Source: an uncultured Bacteroidales bacterium (lineage in GTDB: Bacteria > Bacteroidota > Bacteroidia > Bacteroidales > UBA932). Taken from it: DNA of 64,000 nucleotides. The notes below the pieces were generated by a model that was not told where the DNA came from, did not search any database, and saw nothing but the letters and a program-made list of their open reading frames with translations. This document shows positions 4,706-34,160 of this stretch, in pieces. The DNA is taken from positions 1-64,000 of the forward strand of contig ONRD01000012.1 of assembly GCA_900320185.1 (NCBI GenBank), read 5' to 3'. A program made the translations under genes and the position numbers. The number at the start of each line of letters is the position of its first letter. Within the stretch, counting starts at the first letter, position 1.

Positions 4706-4780
4706 GCCCCTGTAGTTTAATGGATAGAATTTCGGATTCCGGTTCCGACGATAGGCGTTCGATTCGCCTCGGGGGTACCA
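4706..4780 (+). tRNA. tRNA-Arg (anticodon CCG)
   Basis: A full cloverleaf can be folded. The acceptor stem is 4706-4712 with 4770-4776 (7 bp, two G-U pairs). The D arm is GTTT/GAAT. The anticodon stem TCGGA/TCCGA encloses the loop TTCCGGT, giving anticodon CCG, which reads CGG. The T stem is AGGCG/CGCCT around TTCGATT. The discriminator A and an encoded CCA follow. Reading frames across this stretch are artefacts. Confidence 0.93.
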
Positions 4781-4818: not shown

Positions 4819-4825
4819 GCATTTT

Positions 4826-5160
4826 CCCCTTGCGGCCGACACGCCTGACAGACCTGAACGAAGATATGGCATAAGCGGTATTGTGCTGCTGGCCTTCCGC
4901 TTCGCTCCATCCCCCCCGCTGCGCTTCGCTTGCGGGTACCCGCTTACGGCCGCGGGTGGCCAGGGCCCGCAGGACAACACCGCTTACGCCCCTGCAACTT
5001 CGCTCCATCCCCCCGCTGCGCTTCGCTTGCGGGTACCCGCTTACGGCCGCGGGTGGCCAGGGCCCGCAGGACAACACCGCTTACGCCCCTGCAACATCGC
5101 TCCATCCCCCCGCTGCGCTTCGCTTGCGGGTATGCGATTTACAATCGTTTCCGCTCCATC
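4826..5160. repeat. Family-1 intergenic repeat, locus A
   Basis: Nearly the whole gap between tRNA-Arg and the metY stop is repeat. Units beginning TCGCTCCATCC start at 4902, 5000 and 5097, a period of 97-98 bp. The element reads on the minus strand. Its ends are inverted copies of a motif like GTAAGCGGTRTTGTCC, seen at 4870-4885 and in the GGACAACACCGCTTACGCC copies. A 53-bp arm (4826-4878) is repeated at 8173-8225 with one mismatch. No credible gene lies here. Confidence 0.85.
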
Positions 5161-5171
5161 CCCCGGGCGCG

Positions 5172-6458
5172 TCAGATTTTCCCGAAGGCCTGGTCCAGGT
5201 CGGCGATCAGGTCATCCACATGCTCCGTGCCGATAGACAGGCGGATGGTACTCTGGAAGATTCCCTGGTCCGCCAGTTCGGCCTCCGTGAGCTGGGAATG
5301 CGTCGTCGTGGCGGGATGGATGACCAGGGACTTCACGTCGGCCACATTCGCCAGGAGGGAAAAGATTTCCAGCGCATCGATGAACCGGTAGGCCTCCTCT
5401 TTTCCGCCCTTGATCTCGAACGTGAAGATGGACCCGCCTCCGTCCGGGAAATACCGCTGGTAGAGGGCATGGTCGGGATGGCCGGGAAGGGAGGGATGAT
5501 TGACTTTCGCCACCTTTGGGTGGTGGGACAGGTATTCCACGACCTTCAGGGCATTGGCGACATGCCGTTCCACCCGCAGGGACAGAGTTTCCACGCCCTG
5601 CAGGAAGATGAAAGCGCTTACCGGCGAGAGGGTGGCGCCGGTATCCCGGAGCAGGATGGCCCTGGCCCGGGTGATGTAGGCGGCCGGCCCTACGGCGTCG
5701 GCAAAAACGATCCCGTGGTAGCTGTAATCGGGCTCGGTGAACTGCGGGAACTTGCCGGAAGCCTTCCAGTCGAACTTGCCGGAGTCCACGATGACGCCGC
5801 CGATGGCCGTTCCGTGTCCGCCGATGAACTTGGTGGCGGAGTGGACGACGATGTCGGCGCCGTATTCGATGGGCCTCAGCAGGAAGGGCGTCGCGAAGGT
5901 ATTGTCGATCACCAGCGGGATCCGGTGCCGATGGGCGATGGCCGCCACGGCTTCGATGTCGATGAGGTTGGAATTCGGGTTGCCGAAGGATTCAATGAAG
6001 ATGAGTTTGGTCTCGGGACGGATGGCCTTCTCGAAATTCGAGAGGTCGGACGGGTCCACGAAGGTGGTCGTCACCCCGTAGGGGACCAGCGTATGCTCGA
6101 GCAGGTCATACGTGCCGCCATAGATGGTCTTGGCTGATACGACATGGTCTCCCGCGCGGGTAATGTTCAGGATGGCGTAGGTGACGGCGGCCGCGCCGGA
6201 AGCGACGGCCAGGGCTCCCACGCCTCCTTCCAGGGCGGCGATCCGCTGCTCCAGGACGTCCTGCGTGGAGTTCGTCAGGCGGCTGTAGATATTGCCGGGA
6301 TCGGTGAGGCCGAAACGCGCGGCGGCGTGCTCGGAATTATGGAAGACATAGGAGGAGGTGAGGTAGATGGGGACGGCGCGGGCGTCGGATGCCGGGTCCG
6401 GATGCTCCTGTCCCACATGGAGCTGAAGGGTTTCGAAGTGGAGTTTGTGCGTGCTCAT
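5172..6458 (-). CDS. metY: O-acetylhomoserine sulfhydrylase
   Basis: This PLP enzyme makes homocysteine (or, in some organisms, cysteine) from an O-acetylated amino acid and sulfide, in methionine synthesis. At 428 residues it has the length of the O-acetylhomoserine aminocarboxypropyltransferase branch of the Cys/Met PLP family. The PLP lysine is Lys210 in HSATKFIGGHG. Other family motifs are the N-terminal GNIYSRLTNST and the FGNPN loop near 158. It is transcribed from a full promoter (6484-6514), divergently from an Lrp/AsnC regulator that probably controls it. Its 3' end abuts family-1 repeats. A cystathionine synthase or lyase role is less likely, given the insert-containing long form. 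Confidence 0.93.
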   Translation of the reverse strand: MSTHKLHFETLQLHVGQEHPDPASDARAVPIYLTSSYVFHNSEHAAARFGLTDPGNIYSRLTNSTQDVLEQRIAALEGGVGALAVASGAAAVTYAILNITRAGDHVVSAKTIYGGTYDLLEHTLVPYGVTTTFVDPSDLSNFEKAIRPETKLIFIESFGNPNSNLIDIEAVAAIAHRHRIPLVIDNTFATPFLLRPIEYGADIVVHSATKFIGGHGTAIGGVIVDSGKFDWKASGKFPQFTEPDYSYHGIVFADAVGPAAYITRARAILLRDTGATLSPVSAFIFLQGVETLSLRVERHVANALKVVEYLSHHPKVAKVNHPSLPGHPDHALYQRYFPDGGGSIFTFEIKGGKEEAYRFIDALEIFSLLANVADVKSLVIHPATTTHSQLTEAELADQGIFQSTIRLSIGTEHVDDLIADLDQAFGKI

Positions 6459-6483
6459 GATCAGTTCGTTTAATTTCTGTCTG

Positions 6484-6514
6484 CAAAGGTAGAGCGCGCA
6501 GACATTTCAAACAA
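6484..6514 (-). promoter_or_regulatory. metY promoter
   Basis: TTG (6512-6514), a 20-nt spacer and TACCTTTG (6484-6491) on the minus strand give a leader of about 20-25 nt to the metY ATG. Confidence 0.65.
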
Positions 6515-6552
6515 GAAAACGCAAAAATTAGCAGGAATCCTCCAAAAATCAT

Positions 6553-6560
6553 TATATTTG
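6553..6560 (+). promoter_or_regulatory. -7 box of the Lrp-family gene
   Basis: TATATTTG matches TAnnTTTG exactly and lies 55 nt before the ATG. Back-to-back with the metY promoter, it makes a compact divergent control region where a shared operator would be expected. Confidence 0.55.
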
Positions 6561-6615
6561 TAGAAGAATCAATTATCCGGACATTTTTGACGTCCCTTTC
6601 GCAGAAGAATCCGCT

Positions 6616-7092
6616 ATGACCGAATCCCTGGACAAGACCGACATCGCCATCCTGCGCATCCTGCAGGAGAATGCACGCATCACCGTCAAGGACCTCGCCC
6701 TGAAGGTCCACCTCTCCCCCACGCCCGTCTTCGAGCGGATGCGCCGGCTGGAAGCCGGCGGCTATATCCAGCGCTACACGGCTGTCCTGAGCCCCGCACG
6801 CCTGGGACGGGGCTTCACCGTCTTCTGCAGCGTACGGCTCCGTCGCATGGGCAAGGACATCGCCCACGACTTCGTGTCCCGCGTCCGGGACATTCCCGAA
6901 GTGGCGGAATGCTACAACATCTCCGGGGACTTCGACTATCTCCTGAAAATCTACGCCCCCGGCATGCAGTATTACAATGATTTCATCATCAACACCCTGG
7001 GTACCATCGAGAGCCTCGGGTCCATCCAGAGCTGGTTCGTGATGAACGAAGTCAAGAACAGTTACGGCTTGCCGGCCTCCTGCATTGGATAA
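6616..7092 (+). CDS. Lrp/AsnC family transcriptional regulator
   Basis: This is a 158-residue amino-acid-responsive DNA-binding protein. Residues 1-60 form the AsnC-type winged helix-turn-helix (LDKTDIAILRILQENAR, then VKDLALKVHLSPTPVFERM). Residues 70-150 form the RAM effector domain, including the VAECYNISGDFDYLLKI strand region. Its divergent placement from metY suggests that it controls methionine or sulfur assimilation; this is inferred from context only. It ends in a strong intrinsic terminator. Confidence 0.93.
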   Translation: MTESLDKTDIAILRILQENARITVKDLALKVHLSPTPVFERMRRLEAGGYIQRYTAVLSPARLGRGFTVFCSVRLRRMGKDIAHDFVSRVRDIPEVAECYNISGDFDYLLKIYAPGMQYYNDFIINTLGTIESLGSIQSWFVMNEVKNSYGLPASCIG

Positions 7093-7111
7093 TGACGTTT
7101 CTTGAGAAACT

Positions 7112-7150
7112 ATTAGGCATCTTATCCCAAGTGAGATGCCTAATTTTTTT
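7112..7150 (+). terminator. Terminator of the Lrp-family gene
   Basis: An 11-bp perfect stem, ATTAGGCATCT (7112-7122) and AGATGCCTAAT (7134-7144), runs into seven Ts. The T tract directly abuts the left inverted repeat of the neighbouring cassette. Confidence 0.85.
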
Positions 7151-7184
7151 GGAACTATATACTTGTTGACCCTAATATTAGAAA

Positions 7185-7214
7185 AGAGCCGCGGTGGTCA
7201 TCCGCGGTTCTTTG
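7185..7214 (-). terminator. Terminator of the DUF4468-like gene
   Basis: A 10-bp stem with one G-U pair, AGAGCCGCGG (7185-7194) and CCGCGGTTCT (7202-7211), lies just past the stop codon. On the minus strand it ends in TTTTC. Confidence 0.6.
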
Positions 7215-7217
7215 TTT

Positions 7218-7757
7218 CTACCATTCGTCGTCGATGTATGATTTCCCTTCAAGCAAAAACATACCCGAAAAGAACTTGTCATAGAGTTGAGAAGGGACTT
7301 TCGAGAATGCTTTGGTAATCTCTCCATTTCGTACTGCCCAAGTTTCAATTGGATTCTCCGTACCCTCTTTCATAAGGCCTCCCGTGGAGTTCTCGGTGAG
7401 GACAATGTTATCGGCCGTTACCCTATATCTTCCGTCTTTAATCTGAACCGTCACAAAGCAAGAGACATCGCTTCCTGCAGCATAAATTGGAATGGCGCCA
7501 CGGGAGTACCCAAGTTTTTTGAAATCCAATTTGGCTCGTACTACACGGAACGTAATCACATCCCCATCAACAACATCGACAAACTGTCCGTTATTGATAA
7601 TGATATTAAGGAGACCATCATGTTCAAGTTTGGTGTCATACACCTTTTGCCAAAAAGCCTTTCCTTCTTGCGAGACGGAAAAGTTGTTGACTTGCGCATG
7701 AAGCGACAATGAAATAAAAACGGCAGCGCATGCCGCAAGTAAATGGCAAGTTCTCAT
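7218..7757 (-). CDS. DUF4468-like exported protein
   Basis: This is a 179-residue protein with a Sec signal peptide (MRTCHLLAACAAVFISLSLHA), so it is periplasmic or outer-membrane facing. The mature part resembles the DUF4468 fold common in Bacteroidota: FWQKVYDT, then a short beta region, then VQIKDGRYRVTADNI. The function of that family is not known to me. The gene is AT-richer than its neighbours and is the only gene in the inverted-repeat-bounded cassette. That suggests recent acquisition. The assignment rests on motif resemblance only. Confidence 0.6.
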   Translation of the reverse strand: MRTCHLLAACAAVFISLSLHAQVNNFSVSQEGKAFWQKVYDTKLEHDGLLNIIINNGQFVDVVDGDVITFRVVRAKLDFKKLGYSRGAIPIYAAGSDVSCFVTVQIKDGRYRVTADNIVLTENSTGGLMKEGTENPIETWAVRNGEITKAFSKVPSQLYDKFFSGMFLLEGKSYIDDEW

Positions 7758-7777
7758 ATCTTACATTAGTATGGTTA

Positions 7778-7785
7778 CAAAGGTA
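7778..7785 (-). promoter_or_regulatory. -7 box of the DUF4468-like gene
   Basis: TACCTTTG on the minus strand lies 20 nt before the ATG and inside the cassette, so the gene carries its own promoter. Confidence 0.55.
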
Positions 7786-8000
7786 GTAATTTGTTTCGAT
7801 TGCCTAACTGTATTTATGAGAAAAGGAATGATTATGGATTATAAGGATTTTAAGCTAACATCAATTCAAATCAAGGCTATTAGGAGGTTGGTACATGTAC
7901 TTATACCTTAAACGTAGGGGATTATTTCACGAAATCCAGTCTTTTTTTGCTATAGTTCAGGAATTTACGCGGATTTTCGGGTCAACTAGTATATAGTTCC

Positions 8001-8172
8001 CTATTTTTTTCCCTCGTAGACAAAGAGCCCAAGGGTGTAGTTTGCGACCCGCCGAAATGCGTTTCACGCTCTCAAGAAACAATCCTAATGAAAAGAAACG
8101 GCATTTATTCCGCTGGCACGAAACTTCAGGTTGAAGTGAGAGTGCCCGGTCTTGTACGTGTGAGTTCGTATT
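8001..8172. other. Gene-free stretch before the GH3 cluster
   Basis: No gene is supported between the cassette and repeat locus B. The stretch holds a T7 tract at its left end. A reading frame at 8085-8384 (minus) runs mainly through repeat sequence and has no family resemblance. Confidence 0.5.
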
Positions 8173-8299
8173 CCCCTTGCGGCCGACACGCCTGACAGAC
8201 CTGAACGAAGATATGGCGTAAGCGGGGGTACCCGCAAGCGAAGCGCAGCGGGTGGGATGGAGCGAAGCGGAAGGTCCGAAGGACGATACCGCTTACGCC
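8173..8299. repeat. Family-1 repeat, locus B (internally deleted copy)
   Basis: A 53-bp arm (8173-8225) nearly identical to 4826-4878 leads into GGCGTAAGCGG (8215-8225), whose exact inverted copy CCGCTTACGCC is at 8289-8299. Inside are a GGTACCC palindrome and a GTCC-gaa-GGAC hairpin. Compared with other copies it lacks the segment between two internal GTAAGCGG motifs, as expected after recombination between them. Confidence 0.8.
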
Positions 8300-8359
8300 A
8301 TGCCGGAAAAGTTTCCCGGCGGGAGGCTTGCCCGATGCCGGGATTTAAGGAAAAATCCT

Positions 8360-8367
8360 TATATTTA
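8360..8367 (+). promoter_or_regulatory. Possible -7 box of the glycan cluster
   Basis: TATATTTA differs from TAnnTTTG at the last base and lies 32 nt before the first gene of the glycosidase cluster. Confidence 0.35.
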
Positions 8368-8399
8368 CACATCGACCGGAACAAAGAAAACTACATACG

Positions 8400-10655
8400 A
8401 TGAAAAAGACCGAAGGAATCGCCGTCGTCCTGTCCCTCCTGTTCCTGCTTTTTGCATGCAACGGTGGAGAAGACAGGATGAGGTACCGTGACAGCTCCCT
8501 TTCTCCGGAGGAAAGGGCCGAAGACCTCCTGAGCCGGATGAGCCTGGAGGAAAAAGTCAGCCAGATAAGCGCCCAGTTGCTCTTCTTCAATGAATATGAG
8601 TCCGGAAGGGACTACACCAAGGGGCATGTCCGCAACAAGGGACATTTCCTCTGGGAAGGTGGCGTCTCCAACGATCCGGCCTCAGTCGCGGAACAGATCA
8701 ACGAGGACACCAGGCGGTCGGTCGAAGCGAGCCGCTGGGGCATCCCGGTCCTTCAGCATGGAGAGGCCCTCCACGGTGCCCAATGGGGGAATGCGACCTG
8801 TTTCCCGCAGAGCATAGGCATGGCCGCCACATTCGACGACAGCCTTTACCATGAGGTGGGCCGTACGGTAGCAGAGGAACTCCGGGCCGTAGGGGTCCGC
8901 CAGGTCTATGCTCCGGTGGTCAATGTCACCAGGGACCAGAGATGGGGCCGCTGCCAGGAAAGCTATGGCGAGGACGTCCTCCTTAATTCCCGGATGGGCG
9001 TCGCCTATGTAAAGGCGCTGGAAGAGGGTGGAGTTGTCGCCACCCCCAAGCATTTCGTGGACAACTACGGCGAGGGAGGGCATGATTCCTATGCCTCCAC
9101 GACATCCTGGAGGGTGCTGCGGGAAGTCTATCTGGAGCCGTTCCGTGCCTGCATCCAGGAAGGTGGAGCCCGTTCGGTGATGGCGGCCTACAATTCCGTC
9201 GACGGTGTCCCTGCCAGTTGCAACCCCCGCCTTCTCAAGAGCATCCTGAAAGATGAGTGGGGACTGGATGGCTATGTGGTCTCAGACTACGGAGGAGTTG
9301 AGATAGCAAGCGGCGGCCACGGGGTTGCGCCGACTGAGGAAGAGGCACTTGCCCTTTGCCTGGAGAACGGGTTGGACATCCAGCTGGCCAACACCAGCTC
9401 CGCCCTGGTGGATCTCGTGAAGGAAGGGAAAGTCAGCATGGAGACCTTGGACGAAAGCGTCCGCAGAGTCCTGAAGGTCAAGTTCGAGCTTGGGCTTTTC
9501 GAAAATCCTTACGTGGACCCGCAGGCCGCGGCGGGCATCGTACGGAGTGAGGAACACCGCCAGCTTGCCTACGAAAGCGCATGCAAGGCCATGACTTTGC
9601 TCAAGAATGACGGAATACTGCCGCTGAAACCTGGGAGCGTCAGGAAGATAGGCGTTTTCGGTCCTTCGGCCGATGTCCTCAACCTTGGCGACTACAGCGG
9701 TGGCCGCGGAGGCTGGAGAGGCGATGGCGTGACCCCCTTCCAAGGCCTCAGGAAAGCTTTCGAAGGGTCGGCGGAGGTCGTCCTCAACACTCGTGGCCAG
9801 GAAGTAAGGCCTTTGGCGTCTTCGTGCGACGTATTGTTCTTCTTCCCCTCCATCACGGAGGAAGAGGGGAGTGACCGGAGCAGCTTCAAACTCCCTTCCT
9901 GCCACATGGAATCCAACCGGGAGGAAGGTCCTGCCATGATTGTGGACGGGCGGGAGTCCCTCGAGGTTGAAATAGACCAGGAAAAGATGGTCCGGGACCT
10001 TGTCGCTACCGGAAAGCCTGTTGTGGTGGTCCTTCACAACGGAGCCGTAGTGGACATCTCCGACTGGGTCGACGGTGTCGCTGCGGTGCTCGAAGCATGG
10101 TATCCGGGAGAGCAGGGAGGAAGGGCGATAGCCGACATAGTCACAGGGAAGCGCTGTCCCGGCGGCCGTCTCCCCATAAGCTGGCCAAGGAGCATCGGCC
10201 AGAACCCGATGTACTATTCGATCAAGCCCAGCGGCCGCGGCTACGGCTATGTGGAGAATGACGGCAGGCCGCTCTACCCGTTCGGATACGGCCTGAGCTA
10301 CACGACATTTGAATATTCAGGCTTCTGGGTGTCGGAGGAACTTGGAAAGGACCAGCCGCTTAAGGTCTCCGTGACCGTGACCAACACCGGGACAGTCGAG
10401 GGAGACGAGGTGGTCCAGGTCTACATCCACGACGAGCTTGCCTCCGTGGCGCGCCCGCTCAAGGAACTGGCCGCCTTCAAGAGGGTGACGCTTGCCCCGG
10501 GCGAGAGCAGGACCGTGGAACTTGAGATACCATACCGCAGCTTCGCCATGTGGGATGCCGACATGCATTTCCGCGTCGAGGAGGGCTGGTTCAAGGTCTG
10601 GGCAGGACGGAACGCCGACGATGTGGCGGCCGAAGGCAGGGTCTATGTGAAATGA
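8400..10655 (+). CDS. Glycoside hydrolase family 3 lipoprotein (beta-glucosidase/xylosidase)
   Basis: A 751-residue exo-acting beta-glycosidase that removes non-reducing-end glucose or xylose. A lipobox at LLFAC20 predicts anchoring to a membrane facing the periplasm or the surface. The N-terminal TIM-barrel domain has PKHFVDNYG (substrate-contacting Lys217-His218) and VVSDYGG, with Asp296 as the expected nucleophile. The GH3 C-terminal domain follows (NGAVVDISDW, VEAWYPGEQGG-like region, YPFGYGLSYTTF). A fibronectin-III-like domain closes the protein (VTVTNTGTVEGDEVVQVYI). It is first in a run of six co-directional genes. The next gene begins within 20 nt or overlaps. The exact substrate cannot be read from the sequence. 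Confidence 0.93.
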   Translation: MKKTEGIAVVLSLLFLLFACNGGEDRMRYRDSSLSPEERAEDLLSRMSLEEKVSQISAQLLFFNEYESGRDYTKGHVRNKGHFLWEGGVSNDPASVAEQINEDTRRSVEASRWGIPVLQHGEALHGAQWGNATCFPQSIGMAATFDDSLYHEVGRTVAEELRAVGVRQVYAPVVNVTRDQRWGRCQESYGEDVLLNSRMGVAYVKALEEGGVVATPKHFVDNYGEGGHDSYASTTSWRVLREVYLEPFRACIQEGGARSVMAAYNSVDGVPASCNPRLLKSILKDEWGLDGYVVSDYGGVEIASGGHGVAPTEEEALALCLENGLDIQLANTSSALVDLVKEGKVSMETLDESVRRVLKVKFELGLFENPYVDPQAAAGIVRSEEHRQLAYESACKAMTLLKNDGILPLKPGSVRKIGVFGPSADVLNLGDYSGGRGGWRGDGVTPFQGLRKAFEGSAEVVLNTRGQEVRPLASSCDVLFFFPSITEEEGSDRSSFKLPSCHMESNREEGPAMIVDGRESLEVEIDQEKMVRDLVATGKPVVVVLHNGAVVDISDWVDGVAAVLEAWYPGEQGGRAIADIVTGKRCPGGRLPISWPRSIGQNPMYYSIKPSGRGYGYVENDGRPLYPFGYGLSYTTFEYSGFWVSEELGKDQPLKVSVTVTNTGTVEGDEVVQVYIHDELASVARPLKELAAFKRVTLAPGESRTVELEIPYRSFAMWDADMHFRVEEGWFKVWAGRNADDVAAEGRVYVK

Positions 10656-10672
10656 ATGCAATATATTCCATT

Positions 10673-11572
10673 ATGAGATTCAAAGTTTTTTCAATCATGG
10701 CCATCGCCGCTTTGGCCCTGGCCGGATGCTCTCCCAGGGAGGCGGTTAAAACAAACAGGGTCGGACATGTCTTTTTGATCGGACTGGATGGCTGGGGGGC
10801 CTACAGTGTCGGGAAATCCGACATGGTGAATGTCAAGAACTTGATGGAGAACGGCTCGTACACCCTTAAGAAGCGCACCGTGCTCCCTTCGCACAGCGCC
10901 GCCAACTGGGCGTCCATGTGGATGGGCGTAGGTCCCGAGGTGCATGGATTCTACGAGTGCTGCTCAAGGACTCCGGACCTCGAGCCGAGGATGACTCCCG
11001 AAAACGGGATATTCCCGACAGTGTTCCAGCTCCTGCGCGACAAGGAGCCGGACGCCGAGATCGGTTGCCTTTACGAGTGGGATGGGATCAAGTACCTGAT
11101 CGACACGATGTCCGTGAACCGCTACGAACAGGTGCCCCATGCGGACCTGTGCAACGCGGCCAAGGAGTACATCAAGGAGAAGAAGCCACGCCTTGCTGCG
11201 TTCATCTATGACGAACCTGACCATGTCGGCCATTCCTCCGGGCATGATACTCCCCAGTACTACGAGGTCCTGGTACGTCTCGACAAATGGATCGGCGAGA
11301 TCGTCCAGGCCATCGAAGAAGCCGGCATCATGGACGATTCGGTCATAATCCTCACTTCCGACCACGGCGGCATCAACAACGGGCACGGCGGACGTACGAT
11401 GATGGAGATGGAAACGCCTCTGATAATCTGCGGCAAAGGCATCAGGCAGGGCTATTGCTTCGACGACCTCAGCGTGATGCAGTTCGACATCGCTTCCACA
11501 ATGGCCGCCCTCCTTGGGCTCGAGCAGCCCCAGCCTTGGTTCGGGCGTCCCCTGACACAGATATTTGAATAA
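10673..11572 (+). CDS. Type I phosphodiesterase/nucleotide pyrophosphatase-like lipoprotein
   Basis: A 299-residue member of the alkaline phosphatase superfamily. Metal-site motifs are visible: LIGLDGWG at the start of the mature chain, SHSAANW around the expected nucleophile, YDEPDHVGH, and SDHGGINNGHGG. The lipobox is ALAGC. I chose the Met at 10673, which gives a compact lipoprotein signal; a start at 10652 would overlap the GH3 stop (ATGA). It follows GH3 and precedes a rhamnosidase, so it may remove phosphodiester groups from a glycan. Sugar-nucleotide or nucleotide substrates are equally possible. Confidence 0.8.
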   Translation: MRFKVFSIMAIAALALAGCSPREAVKTNRVGHVFLIGLDGWGAYSVGKSDMVNVKNLMENGSYTLKKRTVLPSHSAANWASMWMGVGPEVHGFYECCSRTPDLEPRMTPENGIFPTVFQLLRDKEPDAEIGCLYEWDGIKYLIDTMSVNRYEQVPHADLCNAAKEYIKEKKPRLAAFIYDEPDHVGHSSGHDTPQYYEVLVRLDKWIGEIVQAIEEAGIMDDSVIILTSDHGGINNGHGGRTMMEMETPLIICGKGIRQGYCFDDLSVMQFDIASTMAALLGLEQPQPWFGRPLTQIFE

Positions 11573-11587
11573 CCAGTTACCTGACGA

Positions 11588-14125
11588 ATGCGCAAGATAA
11601 TCCTTTCGGCGGCAGTGCTGCTGCCTTTGTCGCTTGCCGTTGTTTCATGCGGCAGTTCCCTCAAGGTCCAGGACCTTCGCTGCGAAGGGCTGGACCAGCC
11701 TCTGGCCATTGATTCGGCGGAGCCTCATTTCAGCTGGAAGATCTCTTCGGAGACCACGATGTCCCAATCTTCCTTCCAGATCCAGGTGGCGAGTACGCTG
11801 CCCTTGCTCAAGTCCGGCGCTCCTGACCTTTGGGACAGCGGCCAGGTCCAGTCTCCGGACCAGGTGATGGTTCCCTATGGCGGCAAGGCCCTTCCATCCC
11901 GGACGCTTGCCTGGTGGAGGGTCCGCGTGGCAGGACAGGACGGGAAGTTCTCCCCGTGGAGCAAGCCCCGGAGATTCGGGACCGGTGTCATCGGCGGCGA
12001 TTCCCTCAAGGGTGACTTTATCGGGGCCGTCCCTGGCGAAGGGCGCTCTCCGCTCCTGAGGAAGAAGTTCAGCCTTTCCGGGAAAAAAGGCACTACAATC
12101 CTGTATGTCAACTCGCTAGGCTACCACGAGGCCAGCATCAACGGCCGCAAGGTCTCCGAGGCGGTGCTCGCTCCTGCTGTCTCGCAGCTCGACAAAAGGT
12201 CGCTCATCGTCGCCTACGATGTCACCGACCTTCTCAGGAAAGGGGAGAATGAACTTCTCGTCCGCGCAGGAGCCGGCTGGTACAACAAAAGGACTTACGG
12301 ATCCGAATATGAAGGCCCGCTCGTGAAGGCCGAGATCGACTTGTTCTCGGGTGAGGGCTTCGAGCCCGTGGTTTGGACCGATGCTTCCTGGGAAGGCGCC
12401 TGGAGCGGCCGCAGCGACCTTACTGCCTGGTGGTCCGGCTCCTATGGCGGAGAACGGATCGACGCAGGGGCCGTCCCGGAGTGGGGACCTGTCGATGTCG
12501 TCAATCCCGGGAACATGGCCGCCACGCCCCAGATGTGCGAGCCTTGCACGGTGCAGGAGGTCCTGACCGCCGTGAGCATAGAGCCTGCCGGGGAGAACCG
12601 GTGGCTTGTCGATTTCGGGAAGGTAGTCAACGCCATGACTGCGATCACTCTTCCCGCCCTTCCCGCAGGGCACAAGACAACCGCCGTCTACAGTGAGTCG
12701 GTAAGGGATGTTACTAACAGGAACGATTTCGGGTGGGATGAGTTCATCTCCTCCGGCAACAAGGACGGGGACAGGTTCGAATCGCTGTTCAACCACCACA
12801 TATTCCGTTACATCTACCTTGAAAACCTTCCCGAGGCCCCTGCCAGGGAGGCGGTGCAGGCAAGGAGGATGCGGACCGACTATGTCTCGGAAGCTTCCTT
12901 CAGGTGCTCGGACGAAGAACTTTGCAAGATTCACGACATGGTGGCATGGACGATGGAGAACCTCTCCTTCGACGGCTACATGGTCGACTGCGCCAGTATA
13001 GAGCGCCTGGGCTATGGCGGGGACGGCAACGCCTCGACTCTTTCCCTCCAGACCCGTGCTGATGTCGCACCCCTCTATATGAACTGGCTGCAGGCGTGGA
13101 ACGACGTCATCCGTGAGGACGGCGGACTTCCCCACACGGCTCCCTGCCCCTTGAGGGCCGGCGGCGGTCCCTACTGGTGCTCCTTCATAGTCCAGGCGCC
13201 ATGGCGGACCTACATGAGCTATGATGACGACAGGCTGCTCCACAGGTGCTATCCTACCATGAAACACTGGCTCGACTATGTCGACGCCCATACTGTCGGA
13301 GGCCTCCTGAAGCGTTGGCCGGATACTGGCTACAGAAGCTGGTATCTTGGCGACTGGGCCGCCCCGGACGGAGTCGACGTCACTGCCGAGGCGTCGGTCG
13401 ACCTGGTGAACAACTGCGCCCTTCTCCAGTCATATTCAGACCTTGGGAAGATCGCTTCCCTGCTCGGCTGCACCGAGGATGCGGAGGAGTTCGACAAGCG
13501 TTACCAGGACCTTTCTGCACTGGTCCACAAGACATTCTACCATCCGGAAGATTCCACCTACGCTACCGGGACCCAGGTGGATTTGGTCTATCCTATGCTG
13601 GTCGGGGCCGTTCCGGACTCCCTGGTGCCGGCCGTGCGGGAAAAACTCTTCAGAAGGACTGAAGAGGTCTACGGCGGCCATCTCTCGACCGGGCTTGTAG
13701 GCATCCCCGTGCTGACGGAATGGGCCACCCTCGCCGGAGAGGCGGACTGGTTCTACGGCATGCTCAAGAAGCATGGCTATCCCGGCTACCTGTACATGCT
13801 TGACAACGGAGCCACCGGTACCTGGGAGCATTGGAACGGGGCCAGGAGCCTCCTGCATAACTGCTTCAACGGAATCGGGAGCTGGTTCTACCAGGCTCTG
13901 GGAGGCATAATCCCGGATGAGCCAGGATTCCGTCACGTGACGGTCGCCCCGCAGGTGCCCGCCGGCCTCGAGTGGGTCGAGGTGACCCAGGGGACCCCGT
14001 ACGGGAAGATCAGCGTCAGCCGCCATGCAGGCCATCTCTCGGTTGACATCCCGGTCGGCGTCACGGCTACGATTGCCGGTAATGAATATCCCTCCGGCCA
14101 CCACGAGGTTAAACTTGACTTATAG
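11588..14125 (+). CDS. Glycoside hydrolase family 78 alpha-L-rhamnosidase
   Basis: An 845-residue lipoprotein (lipobox VVSC21) that should release terminal alpha-L-rhamnose. The N-terminal beta-sandwich domains are seen in the EPHFSWKI and GYHEASINGRKV regions; the latter is typical of the rhamnosidase N-terminal domain. The six-hairpin catalytic barrel follows, with DCASIERLGYGGDGNAS, which holds the general acid region (usual form DCPQRDERLGWTGD). A C-terminal beta-sandwich ends the chain. It starts 15 nt after the phosphodiesterase. The motif is slightly divergent, but the family call is strong. Confidence 0.9.
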   Translation: MRKIILSAAVLLPLSLAVVSCGSSLKVQDLRCEGLDQPLAIDSAEPHFSWKISSETTMSQSSFQIQVASTLPLLKSGAPDLWDSGQVQSPDQVMVPYGGKALPSRTLAWWRVRVAGQDGKFSPWSKPRRFGTGVIGGDSLKGDFIGAVPGEGRSPLLRKKFSLSGKKGTTILYVNSLGYHEASINGRKVSEAVLAPAVSQLDKRSLIVAYDVTDLLRKGENELLVRAGAGWYNKRTYGSEYEGPLVKAEIDLFSGEGFEPVVWTDASWEGAWSGRSDLTAWWSGSYGGERIDAGAVPEWGPVDVVNPGNMAATPQMCEPCTVQEVLTAVSIEPAGENRWLVDFGKVVNAMTAITLPALPAGHKTTAVYSESVRDVTNRNDFGWDEFISSGNKDGDRFESLFNHHIFRYIYLENLPEAPAREAVQARRMRTDYVSEASFRCSDEELCKIHDMVAWTMENLSFDGYMVDCASIERLGYGGDGNASTLSLQTRADVAPLYMNWLQAWNDVIREDGGLPHTAPCPLRAGGGPYWCSFIVQAPWRTYMSYDDDRLLHRCYPTMKHWLDYVDAHTVGGLLKRWPDTGYRSWYLGDWAAPDGVDVTAEASVDLVNNCALLQSYSDLGKIASLLGCTEDAEEFDKRYQDLSALVHKTFYHPEDSTYATGTQVDLVYPMLVGAVPDSLVPAVREKLFRRTEEVYGGHLSTGLVGIPVLTEWATLAGEADWFYGMLKKHGYPGYLYMLDNGATGTWEHWNGARSLLHNCFNGIGSWFYQALGGIIPDEPGFRHVTVAPQVPAGLEWVEVTQGTPYGKISVSRHAGHLSVDIPVGVTATIAGNEYPSGHHEVKLDL

Positions 14126-14185
14126 CATGCAGCCCCGGCTCTCCGCCGTCATGCCCGGAGCAGCCGGGGCGCATTATTCAACATT

Positions 14186-15220
14186 ATGGACAGAAGACAG
14201 TTTATCAAGGTTTCCGGTTCGGCAACAGCCGCTCTTGCGGTCTCCGGATGCTACGCAGGCAGGAATATGGGCGGCAGCAATGGCCTGCGCCCTGCCGCGT
14301 CGGACTTCGAAGCCCGTATCTCACGCGGAGTCGAGAAGTTCAAGCCATTGAACATAAAGGAAATAACCATCAGCGTGGGGGCTTCGGAGCCGTTCTCCGT
14401 GATGCACGTTTCCGACACCCATATAGTGAAGGTCGACGACCGTGACGGCGAAAGGAAGATCAGACTCGCCGCGGCCCGTTCCCGCTACATGGACTGGGGC
14501 GAACATTACCTTGACGAGGCCGTCGCCTATGCGAGGGACCACGGGATGTTCATGATGCACACAGGCGACATGTACGATTTCGTGTCCGAGGCCAATCTCG
14601 ATTTCACGGCCCGCACCATGCTCGGGGCCGACTGGTTCGTCTGCGCCGGGAACCACGAGTATTCGCAATATGTCGGTGAAGCCAAGGAGGACCAGGCCTA
14701 CAAGGACGCCAGTGCCCAGGCAGTCCGCAGCGCCCTTCCCAATGACCTCGTCTTTGCGTCCAGGGTGATAGGCGGAGTGAATTTCGTCGCGCTGGACGAT
14801 GTCTACTACAACTTCACCGAGTCCCAGCATGCCATGATGGAGGAAGAGATGAAGAAAGGCCTTCCCGTGGTCATGCTATGCCACGTCCCGCTCTATACTC
14901 CTGAATTCTGCAGGTCGGAGCTGGAAGCCATGGGCGGCAGATGCGCCTACCTCACCGGTGTCCCGGTCGAGATTACTTCGACGTACGAACCCGGTGTGAC
15001 CTATCCCGAAGGGGAGGAATGGCGTTACCGCAAGGTCCAGCAGAAGGCTGACAAGCCGACGCTGGACTTCATCGGCTGGCTCAAGGAACAGAAGCTCCTG
15101 AAGGCCATCCTCTGCGGTCACATGCACCGCTTCTTCGAAGAACGCTTCTCGCCGACCGCAGTCCAGTACACCGTAGGCGCCACCTACATGGGCGACGCCC
15201 AGGTGGTGCATTTCAGATAA
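14186..15220 (+). CDS. Calcineurin-like metallophosphoesterase with twin-arginine-type signal
   Basis: A 344-residue exported phosphoesterase. The N-terminus MDRRQFIKVSGSATAALAVSGC combines an RR motif with a lipobox-like Cys. All metal-binding motifs of the family are present: MHVSDTHI, HTGDMYDF, CAGNHEYS, LCHVPLY and LCGHMHRF. It lies between the GH78 and GH43 genes, so it is the second phosphate-removing enzyme in the cluster. A role on a phosphorylated glycan is inference. No tatABC genes are in the window. Confidence 0.85.
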   Translation: MDRRQFIKVSGSATAALAVSGCYAGRNMGGSNGLRPAASDFEARISRGVEKFKPLNIKEITISVGASEPFSVMHVSDTHIVKVDDRDGERKIRLAAARSRYMDWGEHYLDEAVAYARDHGMFMMHTGDMYDFVSEANLDFTARTMLGADWFVCAGNHEYSQYVGEAKEDQAYKDASAQAVRSALPNDLVFASRVIGGVNFVALDDVYYNFTESQHAMMEEEMKKGLPVVMLCHVPLYTPEFCRSELEAMGGRCAYLTGVPVEITSTYEPGVTYPEGEEWRYRKVQQKADKPTLDFIGWLKEQKLLKAILCGHMHRFFEERFSPTAVQYTVGATYMGDAQVVHFR

Positions 15221-15258
15221 ACGGCTTCCCGTCGTTTTACCCCGACAAACCTACAATC

Positions 15259-16839
15259 ATGAATAAAAGACATCTCCCTTCCTTCATCCTTGCACCGGCG
15301 GCCGCCATGCTTGCCGCCTTGGCCTTCTCATGCCAGGATTCCCCTAACGGCAATGCGTGGGGAGACACCGGCGACGGCAGGTACCTGAACCCGGTCCTTG
15401 CGGCAGATTATTCGGACCCTGACGCCATCAGGGTGGGCGACACCTACTACATGGTAGCTTCGGATTTCCATTTCCTCGGCATGCAGGTCCTCAAGTCCGA
15501 CGATCTTGTTAACTGGGAACTGGTCAGCCAGGTCTACGACCGATTCGACCTTCCCGGCTGGGATTCGATGGAGCATTACGCCGGCGGCTCATGGGCTCCG
15601 AGCATCAGGTACCATGACGGGTTGTTCTACGTGTTCTTCTGCACACCCGACGAAGGCCTGTTCATGAGTACGGCAAAGGATGCCGAAGGCCCTTGGTCAC
15701 CCCTGCATGCAGTGAAGGAGGTCGTCGGGTGGGAGGACCCCTGCCCCTTCTGGGACGACGACGGTACCGCCTACCTGGGACACAGCCTCAGGGGCGCAGG
15801 CCCGATAATCGTCCACAAGATGTCTCCTGACGGCAGGCAGCTCCTTGACGACGGCGTCACCGTCTACGAAGGCCCTACGGCCGAAGGGACCAAGTTCCAC
15901 AAGATAGGGGACTATTACTATCTGAGCATCCCCGAAGGCGGAGTCGGCCCCGGATGGCAGACCGTGCTCCGTTCCAAGGACATCTATGGCCCCTATGAGC
16001 GCAAGGTCGTCCTTGAGACCGGTTCCACTTCGGTCAACGGCCCACATCAAGGGGCGATCGTCGACACCCCATACGGTGAATGGTGGTTCCTGCATTTCCA
16101 GAAGAAGGACCCCCTTGGAAGAGTCGTGCATCTCCAGCCGATGCAATGGGTGGACGGATGGCCGGTCATGGGGGAAGACTACGACGGCAACGGAGTAGGG
16201 GAGCCCGTCCCCGGATGGACGAAGCCGAAGGCGGGAAGGAAGACCAAGCCATCCCTTCCCGCATCTTCGGACGATTTCTCGAAGCCGGTTCTTGGGCTTC
16301 AGTGGCAGTTCAACCACAACCCGGTCGATTCAGCCTGGTCGCTTGTCCGCAAGGCCGGTTCCCTGGCGTTGGACGCCCTTCCCGCCCCTTGTTTCAAGAT
16401 GGCCCGCAACACGGTCTCGCAGAAGATAATGGGCTATCAGGGCGCCTGCACGGCGGTCCTGGACTGTTCCTCCATGGCGGAAGGCCAGTTCGCAGGACTC
16501 TCTTGCATGGGGCAGGACAACCATTGCGCGGGAGTCATTGTGAGGCACGGCGTTAAAGTCCTTGTGGCCGGGCATGAATCCGGAGTCCAGGAAGCAGAAG
16601 GAACCGTTTTGGAAGGGGACCGGGTCTGGCTCCGGCTTGAATATGACACAGAGGCCAACGCCTTCTCGTTCTCCTTCAGCCTGGACGGGAAGACGTTCGC
16701 CGCGGCAGGCGATCCCTTTGAAATGCACTTCGGGTTCTGGAAGGGGGCCAGAGTCGCCTTGTTCAGCTACAACTGCACTTCAGCCCAGCCTTCGGGAACG
16801 GCATTCTTCGACTCGTTTGACTACCGTCTGGACCGCTGA
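15259..16839 (+). CDS. Glycoside hydrolase family 43 lipoprotein (beta-xylosidase/arabinofuranosidase)
   Basis: A 526-residue lipoprotein (lipobox AFSC). Residues about 45-320 form the five-bladed propeller with the three expected carboxylates: Asp in YSDPDAIRVGD (base), Asp in WEDPCPFWDDDG (pKa modulator) and Glu in TAEGTKFHKIG (acid). The last about 200 residues form a beta-sandwich of the kind found in beta-xylosidases. Substrates of this arrangement are usually xylosides or arabinofuranosides. It is the fifth gene of the cluster. Confidence 0.9.
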   Translation: MNKRHLPSFILAPAAAMLAALAFSCQDSPNGNAWGDTGDGRYLNPVLAADYSDPDAIRVGDTYYMVASDFHFLGMQVLKSDDLVNWELVSQVYDRFDLPGWDSMEHYAGGSWAPSIRYHDGLFYVFFCTPDEGLFMSTAKDAEGPWSPLHAVKEVVGWEDPCPFWDDDGTAYLGHSLRGAGPIIVHKMSPDGRQLLDDGVTVYEGPTAEGTKFHKIGDYYYLSIPEGGVGPGWQTVLRSKDIYGPYERKVVLETGSTSVNGPHQGAIVDTPYGEWWFLHFQKKDPLGRVVHLQPMQWVDGWPVMGEDYDGNGVGEPVPGWTKPKAGRKTKPSLPASSDDFSKPVLGLQWQFNHNPVDSAWSLVRKAGSLALDALPAPCFKMARNTVSQKIMGYQGACTAVLDCSSMAEGQFAGLSCMGQDNHCAGVIVRHGVKVLVAGHESGVQEAEGTVLEGDRVWLRLEYDTEANAFSFSFSLDGKTFAAAGDPFEMHFGFWKGARVALFSYNCTSAQPSGTAFFDSFDYRLDR

Positions 16840-16927
16840 TTCCCACGCCCTTCCGCTGCCGGATCGCTTTCCGGAACCATGGCGGATCCCACGTTTTTGT
16901 AAATATATTGCAAGACAATCGAAACCT

Positions 16928-19210
16928 ATGATGAATATGAAAAGAATGAGTGTCATCGCGGCTGTCGCTCTTTCAGCCGCCCTTACAGCGGTCTCATGCG
17001 GGCCACGGCAGGAGTCCAAGCCCTTCGTCGTCAGGGACGAGGTCGTGGAGCAGGGAAAGACCATCACCCTCCCCGGCCTTCCCGCAGGGGAACAGAACCA
17101 GTGGCTGGCCTTCAGGAAGGATTTCAGCATCGACAAGGTCCCTTCGCAGGCTCCTGCGAGGATAGCGGTGGACAGCAAGTACTGGCTTTGGATCAACGGA
17201 AAGATGGTAGTGTTCGAAGGCCAGCTCAAGCGTGGACCCGCGCGCGGAGAGAGCTATTTCGATGAAGTGGACATCGCTCCTTTCCTCAGGAAGGGAGAAA
17301 ACAAGATAGCCCTGCTGCTATGGTATTTCGGCAAGGATGGTTTTTCGCACAGCGGCAGCGGAATGGCCCAGCTCTGGTTCGACTGCCCGGCTGCAGGTGT
17401 CACCAGCGACGCGGGATGGCTCTGCAGGAGGGTCCCTGCCTATGGCAAGGCCGACTGCCCGGAGCCTAATTACAGGCTTTCCGAGACAAGCATCTCCTTC
17501 GATGCCAGGAAGGATATAGGAAACTGGCAGACCGGTTCGACCGAAGGGTTCCAGCAGGCGGTAGAGGTTGAAAGCACCCTCGGGCTGCTGAGGCTCCGTC
17601 CAATTCCCCAGTGGAAGGATTTCGGCATCAAGGAAGCATCTTTCGAGACCCGCCCGGGCGAGAAGTGCGACACTGTGGTCGCACGTCTTCCCTACAACAT
17701 GCAGATGACACCCGTGATCGCCGTGAAGGATGAAGAAGGCGGCCACAGGATCCTCATAGAGACCGACCATTCGAAGGTGGGGGCTGAATGCCTTCGTGCC
17801 GAGTACATCACCAAGGCGGGGACCCAGGAGTATGAGTCCTATGGCTGGCTCAACGGAATGAAGATAATCCTTACCGTGGAGCACGGCGCTACGGTCACCT
17901 CGGTGAAGTACCACGAGACCGGCTACGACGCCTCTCCCGACGGGAAGTTCATGTGCGACGATCCGTTCTACAACAAGTTCTGGGACAAAGGCCTGAGGAC
18001 TATCTACGTCAACGCCAGGGACAACTTCTTCGACTGCCCTGAGAGGGAGAGGGGACAGTGGTGGGGTGACATCGTCACTATTCTGAACGAGAGTTTCTAC
18101 ACATATTCAACCTCCCTTCATCCCCTCATCCGCAAGGGAATATGGCAACTGTGCGACTGGCAGAAGCCCAGCGGCGTCCTGTATTCCCCGATCCCCGGCA
18201 ACTATGGGGCGGAGCTTCCATGCCAGATGCTCGCAGCCGTAGGGGTCTATGGTTTCTGGGCATATTACATCAACACCGGCGACAAGGTTACCATCGAGCA
18301 TGCCTTCCCGGCGGTTAAAAGGTATCTGTCACTTTACAAGGTGGGAGAGGACGGCATCACCGACTTCCACAGCGGGGAATGGAACTGGGGCGACTGGGGC
18401 GACAACCGCGACATGCGCCTGCTGCAGGCCACCTGGTACTGCATTGCAATGGATGGAGCGGCAAGGATGGCTTCCCTCCTTGGTGAGAACGAAGTCGCAG
18501 ACTCCTGCATGAGTGTCCGCGAAGGTGTCGTAGAAGCTGTCAACAGGGTGGCATGGAACGGCAGTTGCTACCGGCATCCGGACTACACCGGAGAGACTGA
18601 CGACCGGGTCCAGGCCCTTGCAGTTGTCGGAGGAATCGCCGGCCCCGACAAGTACGATGCCCTGTTCGAGGTCTTCAAGAAAGAAGAGCATGCCAGCCCC
18701 TACATGGAGAAATACGTGATGGAAGCCCTCTTCTGCATCGGCCATGGGGACTATGCCCTCGAGCGTGAGCGCAAGCGCTATGACTTCATCGTGAACCATC
18801 CTGATTTCGACACCCTTTTCGAAGGATGGAACGTCGGAGTGAACGGTGACTGGGACTGCGGGTCCGTCAACCATGCCTGGAGCGGCGGTCCTTTGACCGT
18901 CCTTCCGTCCAAGATGATGGGCCTCAATCCCCTGGAAGCCGGTTGGAAGCGTTTCGAGGTGCGTCCCGACAAGTACATCTTCAATGACTGCAGCATCTCA
19001 TTCCCGACAGTTTCCGGAACCGTTGCGATGGAGTTCTCCCGCAAGGGCGGGGATGCGGTACTCAAGGTGACCGTTCCCGACGGCACCACCGCCGAGGCGA
19101 CGCTTCCATGGACTTTCTCCAAGGCGACCCTTGACGGAAAAGATCTTTCCGGCCAGGAGGCCGTGCTCGAGGCCGGAAAGCACGTTTTCAAGTTGTCCGG
19201 GATTGAATGA
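16928..19210 (+). CDS. Alpha-L-rhamnosidase-like six-hairpin glycosidase
   Basis: A 760-residue lipoprotein (signal MNMKRMSVIAAVALSAALTA, lipobox AVSC). A frame open further upstream lies inside GH43 and is not used. The N-terminal domain resembles the rhamnosidase jelly roll (KYWLWINGKMVVFEGQLKRG). The catalytic barrel has NFFDCPERERGQWWGD, the position of the rhamnosidase general acid, and a later EWNWGDWGDNRD segment. It is related to GH78 but differs clearly from the copy at 11588, so a different linkage or substrate is likely. It is the last gene of the cluster and is followed by family-1 repeats. Confidence 0.82.
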   Translation: MMNMKRMSVIAAVALSAALTAVSCGPRQESKPFVVRDEVVEQGKTITLPGLPAGEQNQWLAFRKDFSIDKVPSQAPARIAVDSKYWLWINGKMVVFEGQLKRGPARGESYFDEVDIAPFLRKGENKIALLLWYFGKDGFSHSGSGMAQLWFDCPAAGVTSDAGWLCRRVPAYGKADCPEPNYRLSETSISFDARKDIGNWQTGSTEGFQQAVEVESTLGLLRLRPIPQWKDFGIKEASFETRPGEKCDTVVARLPYNMQMTPVIAVKDEEGGHRILIETDHSKVGAECLRAEYITKAGTQEYESYGWLNGMKIILTVEHGATVTSVKYHETGYDASPDGKFMCDDPFYNKFWDKGLRTIYVNARDNFFDCPERERGQWWGDIVTILNESFYTYSTSLHPLIRKGIWQLCDWQKPSGVLYSPIPGNYGAELPCQMLAAVGVYGFWAYYINTGDKVTIEHAFPAVKRYLSLYKVGEDGITDFHSGEWNWGDWGDNRDMRLLQATWYCIAMDGAARMASLLGENEVADSCMSVREGVVEAVNRVAWNGSCYRHPDYTGETDDRVQALAVVGGIAGPDKYDALFEVFKKEEHASPYMEKYVMEALFCIGHGDYALERERKRYDFIVNHPDFDTLFEGWNVGVNGDWDCGSVNHAWSGGPLTVLPSKMMGLNPLEAGWKRFEVRPDKYIFNDCSISFPTVSGTVAMEFSRKGGDAVLKVTVPDGTTAEATLPWTFSKATLDGKDLSGQEAVLEAGKHVFKLSGIE

Positions 19211-19249
19211 TCCTTCATCGCGGCATTGCTGGGAGGAAGGAGCGGATGT

Positions 19250-19680
19250 GCCTGGCGTAGGCGGTGTTGTCCTGCGGACCCTGGCCACCCGCGGCCGTAA
19301 GCGGGCGGGGCCTGCATGCGAAGCACAGCGGTTTGGATTGAGTGGACGTGTTGGTCGTAAGGGGTGTTGTCCTGCGGACCCTGGCCACCCGCGGCCGTAA
19401 GCGGGCGGGGCCTGCAAGCGAAACGCAGTGGTTTGGATTGAGTGGACGTGTTGGTCGTAAGGGGTGTTGTCCTGCGGACCCTGGCCACCCGCGGCCGTAA
19501 GCGGGCGGGGCCTGCATGCGAAGCGCAGCGGTTTGGATTGATCGGACGTGCTGGCCGTAAGGGGTGTTGTCCTGCGGACCCTGGCCACCCGCGGCCGTAA
19601 GCGGGCGGGGCCCACGCCGAAAGGCGTGGGAGGGATGGAGCGAAGCGGAAGGTCCGAAGGACAATACCCCTTACGACTTC
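19250..19680. repeat. Family-1 repeat, locus C: exact 100-bp tandem array
   Basis: The motif TGTTGTCCTGCGGACCCTGG begins at 19265, 19365, 19465 and 19565, so the period is exactly 100 bp in four copies. The last copy ends in a full element terminus: GTAAGGGGTGTTGTCC (19557-19572) is matched, inverted, by GGACAATACCCCTTAC (19659-19674), 15 of 16. The array fills the convergent gap between the rhamnosidase-like gene and the S9 peptidase. Open frames through it exist only because 100-bp repeats cycle all three frames. Confidence 0.92.
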
Positions 19681-19727
19681 ACCATCAACGGTCAACCATC
19701 AACGGTCAACGATACCTCACTACCGAT

Positions 19728-33240: not shown

Positions 33241-33321
33241 GTTTCTTTCGCTGGCTGCAGGTTTCTTTCGGTGCCGGCAAGTTTCTTTTCGGTCGCTGCT
33301 GGTTTCTTTCGGGGCCGGCTT
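33241..33321. repeat. Four 20-bp tandem repeats (GTTTCTTTCGG type)
   Basis: Units starting GTTTCTTTC or GTTTCTTTTC begin at 33241, 33261, 33281 and 33302. Each is followed by a variable GC-rich half such as GTGCCGGCAA or GGGCCGGCTT. They sit in the 430-bp gap between the Ssb-like gene and the zinc-ribbon gene. No gene is supported in this gap. Confidence 0.75.
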
Positions 33322-33330
33322 GAGGGACCC

Positions 33331-33380
33331 ACAAGCGGAGTGCAGTGGGCGGGATGTAGCGCGGAGCGCGGAAGGCAACC
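33331..33380. repeat. Degenerate family-1 fragment, locus D
   Basis: ACAAGCGGAGTGCAGTGGGC followed by GGGATGTAGCGCGGAGCGCGG corresponds to the AAGCGAAGCGCAGCGGG-GGGATGGAGCGAAGCGG part of the family-1 unit. The terminal inverted repeats are not recognisable. Confidence 0.55.
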
Positions 33381-33576
33381 GGAATGGGATGCCCGTCTCC
33401 TGGAAGGATCCCGCGCAGGCAATGGGGACATTCAAAAACAATCGGGACCAGAAAGAAACGTTCCGGATCTTAAAAAAACGAAAATCTTGTCGTTATTTCC
33501 TTTATTATCCTTTGTTCCTGCCCATTGAGGGGCTACCTTAGCGGGTGAGCGCAGTCATATCCCTGCGCAGGAAGCC

Positions 33577-33987: not shown

Positions 33988-34160
33988 ACCTCCCCATTTG
34001 CAACAAAAGGCGCTGCCCCCACCACGGAGGCTGAACCTCCGCAGTGGGGGCATAGGGCGCTGGACCCGCCACGGAGGCTGAACCTCCCCATTTGCAACAA
34101 AAGGCGCTGCCCCCGCCACGGAGGCTGAACCTCCGCAGTGGGGGCATAGGGCGCTGGACC
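33962..34160. repeat. Family-2 repeat: 47-bp tandem array
   Basis: GGCGCTG begins at 33962, 34009, 34056, 34103 and 34150, an exact 47-bp period. Every unit holds GGAGGctgaaCCTCC, a 5-bp hairpin. Two unit types alternate: one ends CCATTTGCAACAAA, the other GCAGTGGGGGCATAG, so the higher-order period is 94 bp. It fills the gap between the convergent zinc-ribbon and nucleoside-transporter genes. Three reading frames through it give low-complexity peptides and are not genes. Confidence 0.9.

Follow-up and report, generated by a model that had tools for sequence, protein, structure and literature searches.

Palindromic elements located within genes are best known from Rickettsia. The Rickettsia palindromic elements (RPEs) are ~150 bp long and, according to the account cited here, occur in frame within genes for unrelated proteins as well as elsewhere (PMC10969869). 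REPs and BIMEs are small dispersed palindromes that often lie downstream of genes and are sometimes intragenic or clustered, and CGTC repeats have been reported from Bacteroidetes among other phyla (PMC3733652). We found no description of the element reported below in the open-access papers searched.

The window analysed here is a 64-kb stretch of DNA from a genome of 2.28 Mb in 49 contigs (92.8% complete; G000). A preliminary description had pointed out three loci with a shared architecture, A, B and C, and a fourth, degenerate piece near positions 33331-33380. All four are real, with corrected boundaries: A and C are tandem arrays, B is an internally deleted copy and the fourth piece is a remnant. 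The arrays have periods of 97 and 100 nt, and a complete unit measures ~130 nt. Such a unit consists of long inverted arms (P1) around an H-type pseudoknot and two hairpins, P3 and P4. The pseudoknot region, CCTGGCC-A-CCCGC-GGCC-GTAA-GCGGG, lies inside the arms and forms by GGCC:GGCC and CCCGC:GCGGG pairing. It is followed on the 3' side by the sequence-variable P3, a GGGATGGAGCG linker and the short P4. The linkers are purine-rich and near-invariant, and the unpaired bases are near-invariant. In the sampled relatives, the element is about 90-175 nt long (89-174 nt in 79 elements), with a P1 of 12-39 bp.

Locus C is a tandem array on the plus strand at 19256-19612 (Tandem Repeats Finder: 3.6 copies, period 100 nt), at the end of which lies a complete unit (19552-19681, plus; model R1 E 9.1e-36; RNA fold z -6.8). 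Its inverted ends, previously given as 15 matches of 16, are genuine but longer, the 5' arm of P1 (19556-19580, plus) pairing with the 3' arm (19651-19675, plus) over 25 nt at 92% complementarity. The same 3' arm is complementary to the starts of two earlier units over 27 nt (93%). Reading of the sequence places the pseudoknot at 19583-19605 (plus), with stem S1 formed by 19583-19586 and 19593-19596 and stem S2 by 19588-19592 and 19601-19605; the same stems covary in relatives, as detailed below. The P3 hairpin, with 8 bp and a GAAA loop (19611-19630, plus), was identified by sequence reading and folding and also covaries in relatives. It is followed by the conserved stretch GGGATGGAGCGAAGCGGA with the short P4 hairpin (19631-19650, plus), which corresponds to invariant or nearly invariant columns of alignment A1. 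In RNA folding, three single units gave z -5.6, -6.8 and -7.8 relative to shuffles and one reverse strand gave z -7.7, while the whole array C barely exceeds shuffled sequences (z -2.0; 4/100 shuffles equally good).

Locus A, directly after a tRNA-Arg gene (4706-4780), is a tandem array on the minus strand at 4900-5132 (Tandem Repeats Finder: 2.4 copies, period 97 nt). Its sole complete unit, with arms, pseudoknot, P3 and P4, is at 4864-4992 (minus; R1 E 8.3e-32) and is part of alignment A1. By sequence reading, the extra units of this array have no 3' arm. In both arrays the 3' arm is present only in the last unit, so that one complete unit closes each. Locus B (8213-8301, plus) has arms complementary at 13/13 positions, as well as P3 and P4, and lacks the first (pseudoknot) half of the core; the R1 match spans 8155-8303 (E 1e-9). 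According to local alignment and BLAST, element A bears a recurrent stretch of 55 nt at its 3' edge (4824-4878), and local alignment located a second copy of it at the 5' edge of element B (8171-8225). The two are 54/55 identical and inverted relative to the element.

The segment between these loci has features of its own. At 5143-7092, 1951 nt are 98% identical to a same-genus genome (G378) and the neighbouring DNA is different; one end of this segment is at array A, and it looks like a segment exchange. Over the queried part, 6600-7092, other same-genus genomes are 66-84% similar. Short element matches aside, no clean empty site for locus B was found among same-genus relatives, because these are 66-85% similar there and the 98%-identical segment ends at A beside unrelated DNA.

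The weak remnant corresponds to the P3/P4 part of the element (33280-33393, plus; R1 E 7.3e-4, R2 E 0.022). A GTTTCTTTCGG-type tandem repeat (33241-33319) immediately precedes it. Another tandem repeat of 47/94 nt, at 33961-34160 (2.1 copies of 94 nt, 97% matches), looks unrelated to the element. The window also contains a TPP riboswitch above gathering score (Rfam RF00059; 59115-59215, minus).

The family is dispersed in the window's genome. A 25-nt core sequence has 49 matches at up to three mismatches, 38 of them exact, and a reversed control pattern has none; with locus B as a BLAST query, 64 matches were obtained. The 49 cores make up 28 arrays or single sites, 12 of which contain more than one unit. 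None of the 28 sites is convincingly intragenic, although two overlap doubtful ORFs. At 21 of the remaining 26, the downstream gene is directed towards the element, as judged with a simple ORF caller. Many copies are followed downstream by a GAGGATGACCTCC...GTCATCCTC hairpin beside an A-run (L031-L061, on the 3' side of several arrays), which resembles a terminator of the opposite gene.

The pseudoknot and P3 covary in relatives. We aligned 26 of the 30 complete units of the window's genome (A1), excluding three with a broken, missing or degenerate 3' arm (L044, L045, L049) and one at a contig end (L058). The three arm helices are paired in 91.5, 97.6 and 98.5% of cells. Changes on both sides were found for 16/31 structure pairs, a number reached by 0/500 shuffles, and registers slid out of phase gave 1-5. 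A second alignment (A7) comprises 28 model hits from other genomes; stem S1 is absent from the model and hence played no part in their selection. S1 is paired in 100% of A7 cells, with pair types including AU 14, GC 9 and UA 4, and 3/4 of its pairs changed on both sides. Over the whole structure, A7 has 67 double-change cells against 18.9 in shuffles (0/500) and 0-12 in slid registers. The largest alignment, A4, contains 67 cores that we chose from 144, after a filter that favours pairing (S1 3/3, S2 5/5 and inner arms 10/12 paired; 152/178 passed). It yielded 134 double-change cells against 34.6 in shuffles (0/500) and 4-19 in slid registers. The outer S1 pair, which lies outside the pairing filter, occurs in A4 as UA 20, AU 17, GC 14 and CG 3, with one unpaired. 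When cores were selected by sequence alone, without a pairing filter, both stems were paired in 121/123. Shuffles were not clearly exceeded for further pair types (396/500 in A4, 55/500 in A7) or for the number of pairs with a double change in A7 (39/500).

The occurrence of the element is wide but patchy. A model built from the window's genome, for which no more than 22 candidates per genome were scored, found matches in 42/149 genomes of the family, belonging to 11/25 genera. Of 324 genomes across the order five matched, two of them from the same family and the other three from three further families. The window's exact 25-nt core had no match in the collection of named genomes, which may leave out the window's own genome; therefore, we used a related-form pattern instead. 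This pattern retrieved at least 120 stretches in named records, and 80 loci of these were read. Several of the 80 loci come from one and the same genome. Their titles refer to Bacteroidales or Bacteroidia, with one Candidatus Coprenecus, and many mention the ruminant stomach. No viral contig matched the related-form pattern.

In these gut bacteria, relatives of the element lie between genes, and many are found inside protein genes. The 80 loci contain 81 elements, 39 of which lie within ORFs of at least 150 aa according to a simple ORF caller. A Pfam family was found in 30 of these 39 ORFs (10/10, 9/10, 6/10 and 5/9 in successive batches), and for 19 of the 39 the Pfam matches run across the core or lie on both sides of it. 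Matches across the core concern RsmH, YgiQ (twice), RNase R and TruA. Those flanking it concern HI0933-like proteins (twice), another FAD protein, RibF (three times), TruB (twice), MiaB-like, RlmI-like, ABC transporter, GH9/deacetylase, TldD/PmbA-like and FHA proteins; for the RibF protein of L130, the FAD_syn match is under the Pfam cut-off. Gene names beyond those of Pfam are our own reading. Two YggS genes (L187, L189) were added through homology, which brings the genes reading through the element in frame to at least 21/39; the other 18 ORFs lack such confirmation and probably include spurious ones. When 79 elements were put through an automatic frame test, 32 had both sides open for at least 300 nt, and in 17 of these one frame was open through the element. 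Since this test picks wrong frames at times (e.g. in L116), we relied on Pfam and homology.

The 21 in-frame copies, some of which occupy a single site across species (L114/L138, L124/L134 and L187/L189), are inserted in both orientations, 11 sense and 10 antisense to the gene. Opposite orientations even occur in one gene in different species, namely RibF (L121 versus L130 and L167) and TruB (L154 versus L133). All three antisense frames and two sense frames are used through the core. The third sense frame, which contains a TAA in the usual core, is by our own reading used only in L129, whose core is devoid of it. Intragenic copies are often at domain boundaries. Among 30 YggS relatives, two (L232, L233) likewise contain the element in this loop, 27 have a short loop, and one (L252) has a different or degenerate insert. 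The YgiQ comparison involved 32 loci, seven of which were unreadable by script. The element lies antisense at one and the same place in L138, L296 and L114 (to which L295 is identical here). L301 has one in sense orientation in that loop, L303 has an intermediate segment, and L305 and 16 more (L307-L322) lack the element. In L297 and L298, a second, different repeat is nested inside the palindromic element. Compared with L305, the outer few arm bases look partly native and the rest inserted. In this one gene, whose closest element-free relative is 87% identical in the matched protein part, we recognised no target duplication. The insertions in RsmH, RNase R, RibF, TruB, YggS and YgiQ provide natural material on the tolerance of proteins to in-frame inserts of ~40 aa.

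Copies at the same site in different genomes make it possible to follow how the element changes. Among 36 pairs with both flanks similar, 16 were used. They are not independent, as they include three YgiQ pairs, six YggS pairs and three from one genus triple. The core is more similar than the flanks in all 16 (80-99% versus 72-93%, gaps uncounted), which is unexpected for a dead insert and suggests selective constraint in place or gene conversion among copies. If selection were acting for the benefit of the host, the element might be a DNA site, e.g. for protein binding or recombination, kept at each locus. Compensatory steps in P3 and S1, such as in L125/L166 and L114/L138, agree with such a role, as does the core conservation. 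However, the element is patchy, with 5/324 genomes of the order, it is missing from the corresponding gene in many relatives, and it sits in loops of unrelated proteins, so that we hold a host-beneficial site to be quite improbable.

Near-invariant unpaired bases, pseudoknot covariation, strong folding and the core conservation at all 16 pairs would also fit a functional structured RNA, multicopy and regulatory or catalytic, that is not a mobile element. Against such an RNA stand the 10/21 confirmed intragenic copies that are antisense to their gene, and the array units devoid of a 3' arm. In addition, no Rfam 15 family matched the element at gathering score in a search of the whole window, and a search at a lax threshold with locus C and four relatives gave weak sub-threshold matches only, none above chance level. 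We regard this explanation as unlikely. The loops of the hairpins bear on the nature of the folded strand. With a simple hairpin finder, GNA triloops are the commonest loop class in both P3 (43/122) and P4 (52/108), and GNYA tetraloops outnumber GNRA in P3 (18 versus 7), many of them from near-identical copies. DNA mini-hairpins can have stable loops. Taken with this loop stability, the GNA triloops and the GNYA excess make the fold more probably DNA than RNA; the evidence leans that way, as an indication from general thermodynamics and a simple hairpin finder rather than as a proof.

The arms behave differently from the core. The sequence of P1 varies with locus and species, with a loose consensus near the core, and its pairing is kept. 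Over time, the two arms seem to evolve jointly. In the 16 same-site pairs there are 114 paired double changes, 10 unpaired double changes and 37 changes in one arm, and sliding the registers by 1-3 left 5-16 paired double changes. Because elements had been preselected for paired inner arms, the outer 14 arm positions are a fairer test; these alone show 79 concerted, 4 unpaired and 18 one-arm changes, with 3-13 concerted in slid registers. The arms are less similar than the flanks in 13/16 pairs. L067, L071 and L076 form one triple: between L067 and L071 the flanks are 93% similar and the arms 75% similar, with 6/7 changed positions concerted, whereas L067 and L076, with flanks 79% similar, share 96% of the arms. 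This triple favours rewriting in place over insertion that simply recurred. An orthologous pair, L157/L170, is a counter-example, with three one-arm changes and no concerted one.

The 20 pairs that were dropped include three L302 pairs (10, 10 and 8 concerted; 1, 1 and 3 unpaired; 6, 5 and 5 one-arm changes), L173/L188 (3 concerted, 2 unpaired, 10 one-arm) and L130/L167 (9 concerted, 7 unpaired, 2 one-arm). The other 15 either set units or arrays within the window's genome against one another or depend on a second core call that is doubtful. E. coli is known to switch templates at quasipalindromes, as described in the cited work (PMC7202029). The concerted arms would preserve a record, made in nature, of such switching within palindromes.

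Arms of this kind bear on two classes of small mobile elements that had been proposed at the outset. A classical MITE moved by a DDE transposase has fixed terminal inverted repeats and target duplications. The size and the long inverted ends of our element recall a MITE, but MITE ends share one sequence, and here no end sequence is fixed across loci; since arm sequences vary between loci and species and remain complementary, they are not terminal inverted repeats in the MITE sense. No target duplication was recognised in the YgiQ comparison. We hold a DDE-type MITE to be highly improbable.

The other class is that of REPs and BIMEs, short palindromes moved on single-stranded DNA by a RAYT, i.e. 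a Y1 tyrosine transposase. The element is likewise dispersed, clustered, palindromic and partly intragenic. Moreover, Y1 matches are commoner in element-bearing genomes (34/42) than in the others (60/107; hand count from two lists), and the RAYT-like profile A5 weakly matches G009, G080, G140 and G148, four genomes that bear the element and have no PF01797 match at 0.001. Nevertheless, six genomes including that of the window (G000, G005, G130, G422, G571, G601) have no match to PF01797 or to A5. A seventh, G018, has no A5 match and a PF01797 match at 0.016 only. Four of these genomes are 96-99% complete. In the RAYT-region loci scanned in relatives, the element was not found (R1, no match in 20 loci; R2, lowest E 0.23 among 25 loci, some from the same region), and several RAYT-like genes there lie between other palindromes. 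No tetranucleotide is constant at the outer ends of the element: looking by eye for GTAG or CGTC at the foot of the palindrome, we found that outer P1 ends differ by locus. A RAYT/TnpA-REP gene flanked by the same termini, which the preliminary description suggested looking for, was found neither in the window's genome nor in the scanned loci of relatives, and a strict REP-like reading is not supported. We give a REP/BIME explanation a low probability. The element does not have the defining properties of either REP/RAYT systems or fixed-TIR MITEs.

The relatives do have RAYT-like Y1 transposases of ~300-340 aa (L262-L275, L277, L278, L280, L281), 15 of which make up alignment A5. Several of the genes lie between two long palindromes that resemble each other but are different for each gene. 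A search for a gene commonly neighbouring the element grouped 634 ORFs into 525 clusters, the largest of which covers five loci at 86-1564 nt from the element. In 25 of the 525 clusters, inspected by eye with the ORFs unannotated and without a chance control, no transposase-like gene was recognised.

The preliminary description had proposed a mobile element moved by an enzyme encoded elsewhere. Its general form agrees with the many copies, the patchy spread and the element-free orthologous sites, whereas its strict REP and fixed-TIR MITE versions do not stand; no enzyme, jump or clean target duplication was found, which counts against it. On balance, we lean slightly towards a family of non-autonomous, mobile palindromic elements that act as a folded strand and whose arms are rewritten by template switching. 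The folded core would be recognised as a single strand, more probably of DNA than of RNA, by an enzyme encoded elsewhere, and selection would maintain the core and the pairing of the arms during spread. After insertion, replication may switch template between the arms and copy one into the other, which would be the simplest reading of their concerted changes. The tandem arrays of loci A and C may be secondary duplications of the 5' part, aided by the repeated GATGGAGCG, and locus B might be a snap-back product from the 3' end of A. The folded core provides a concrete bait for finding the mobilising enzyme.

We entertain more tentatively the idea of a new class of mobile elements, defined by a pseudoknotted single strand with short GNA hairpins, no Y1/RAYT in the same genome, in-frame insertion in both orientations and two long arms, free to vary in sequence but rewritten jointly at each site through template switching; most reading frames of the core are open, which would let the element enter functioning genes whichever way round it lands, with their frame preserved.

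Compared with known systems, we regard the element as a variant of the small palindromic mobile elements that also enter genes, the pseudoknot core and the concerted arms being unusual. Like REPs, it is a small dispersed palindrome that is sometimes clustered or intragenic, but REPs are 20-40 bp long with a GTAG or CGTC tag, whereas the element is ~130 nt long and its ends have no constant tag. It shares with bacterial MITEs a size under 500 bp, inverted ends and the absence of a transposase gene, and differs from them in being GC-rich, with no fixed TIR sequence and no target duplication seen. In integrons, the attC site is a folded single strand recognised by its structure rather than its sequence, and its conserved sites lie at the stem base. 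The element resembles it as a folded strand that would be read by structure; in contrast with attC, it is conserved at the apex and its stem varies. With the RPEs it shares a palindromic nature, a size of ~100-150 nt and in-frame insertion in unrelated genes (at least 21/39 ORFs). It differs from them in being inserted in both orientations and several frames, in its covarying pseudoknot, in its unfixed arms and in its Bacteroidales hosts. By these shared properties, rather than by sequence homology, the element may be likened to an RPE in the way it works.
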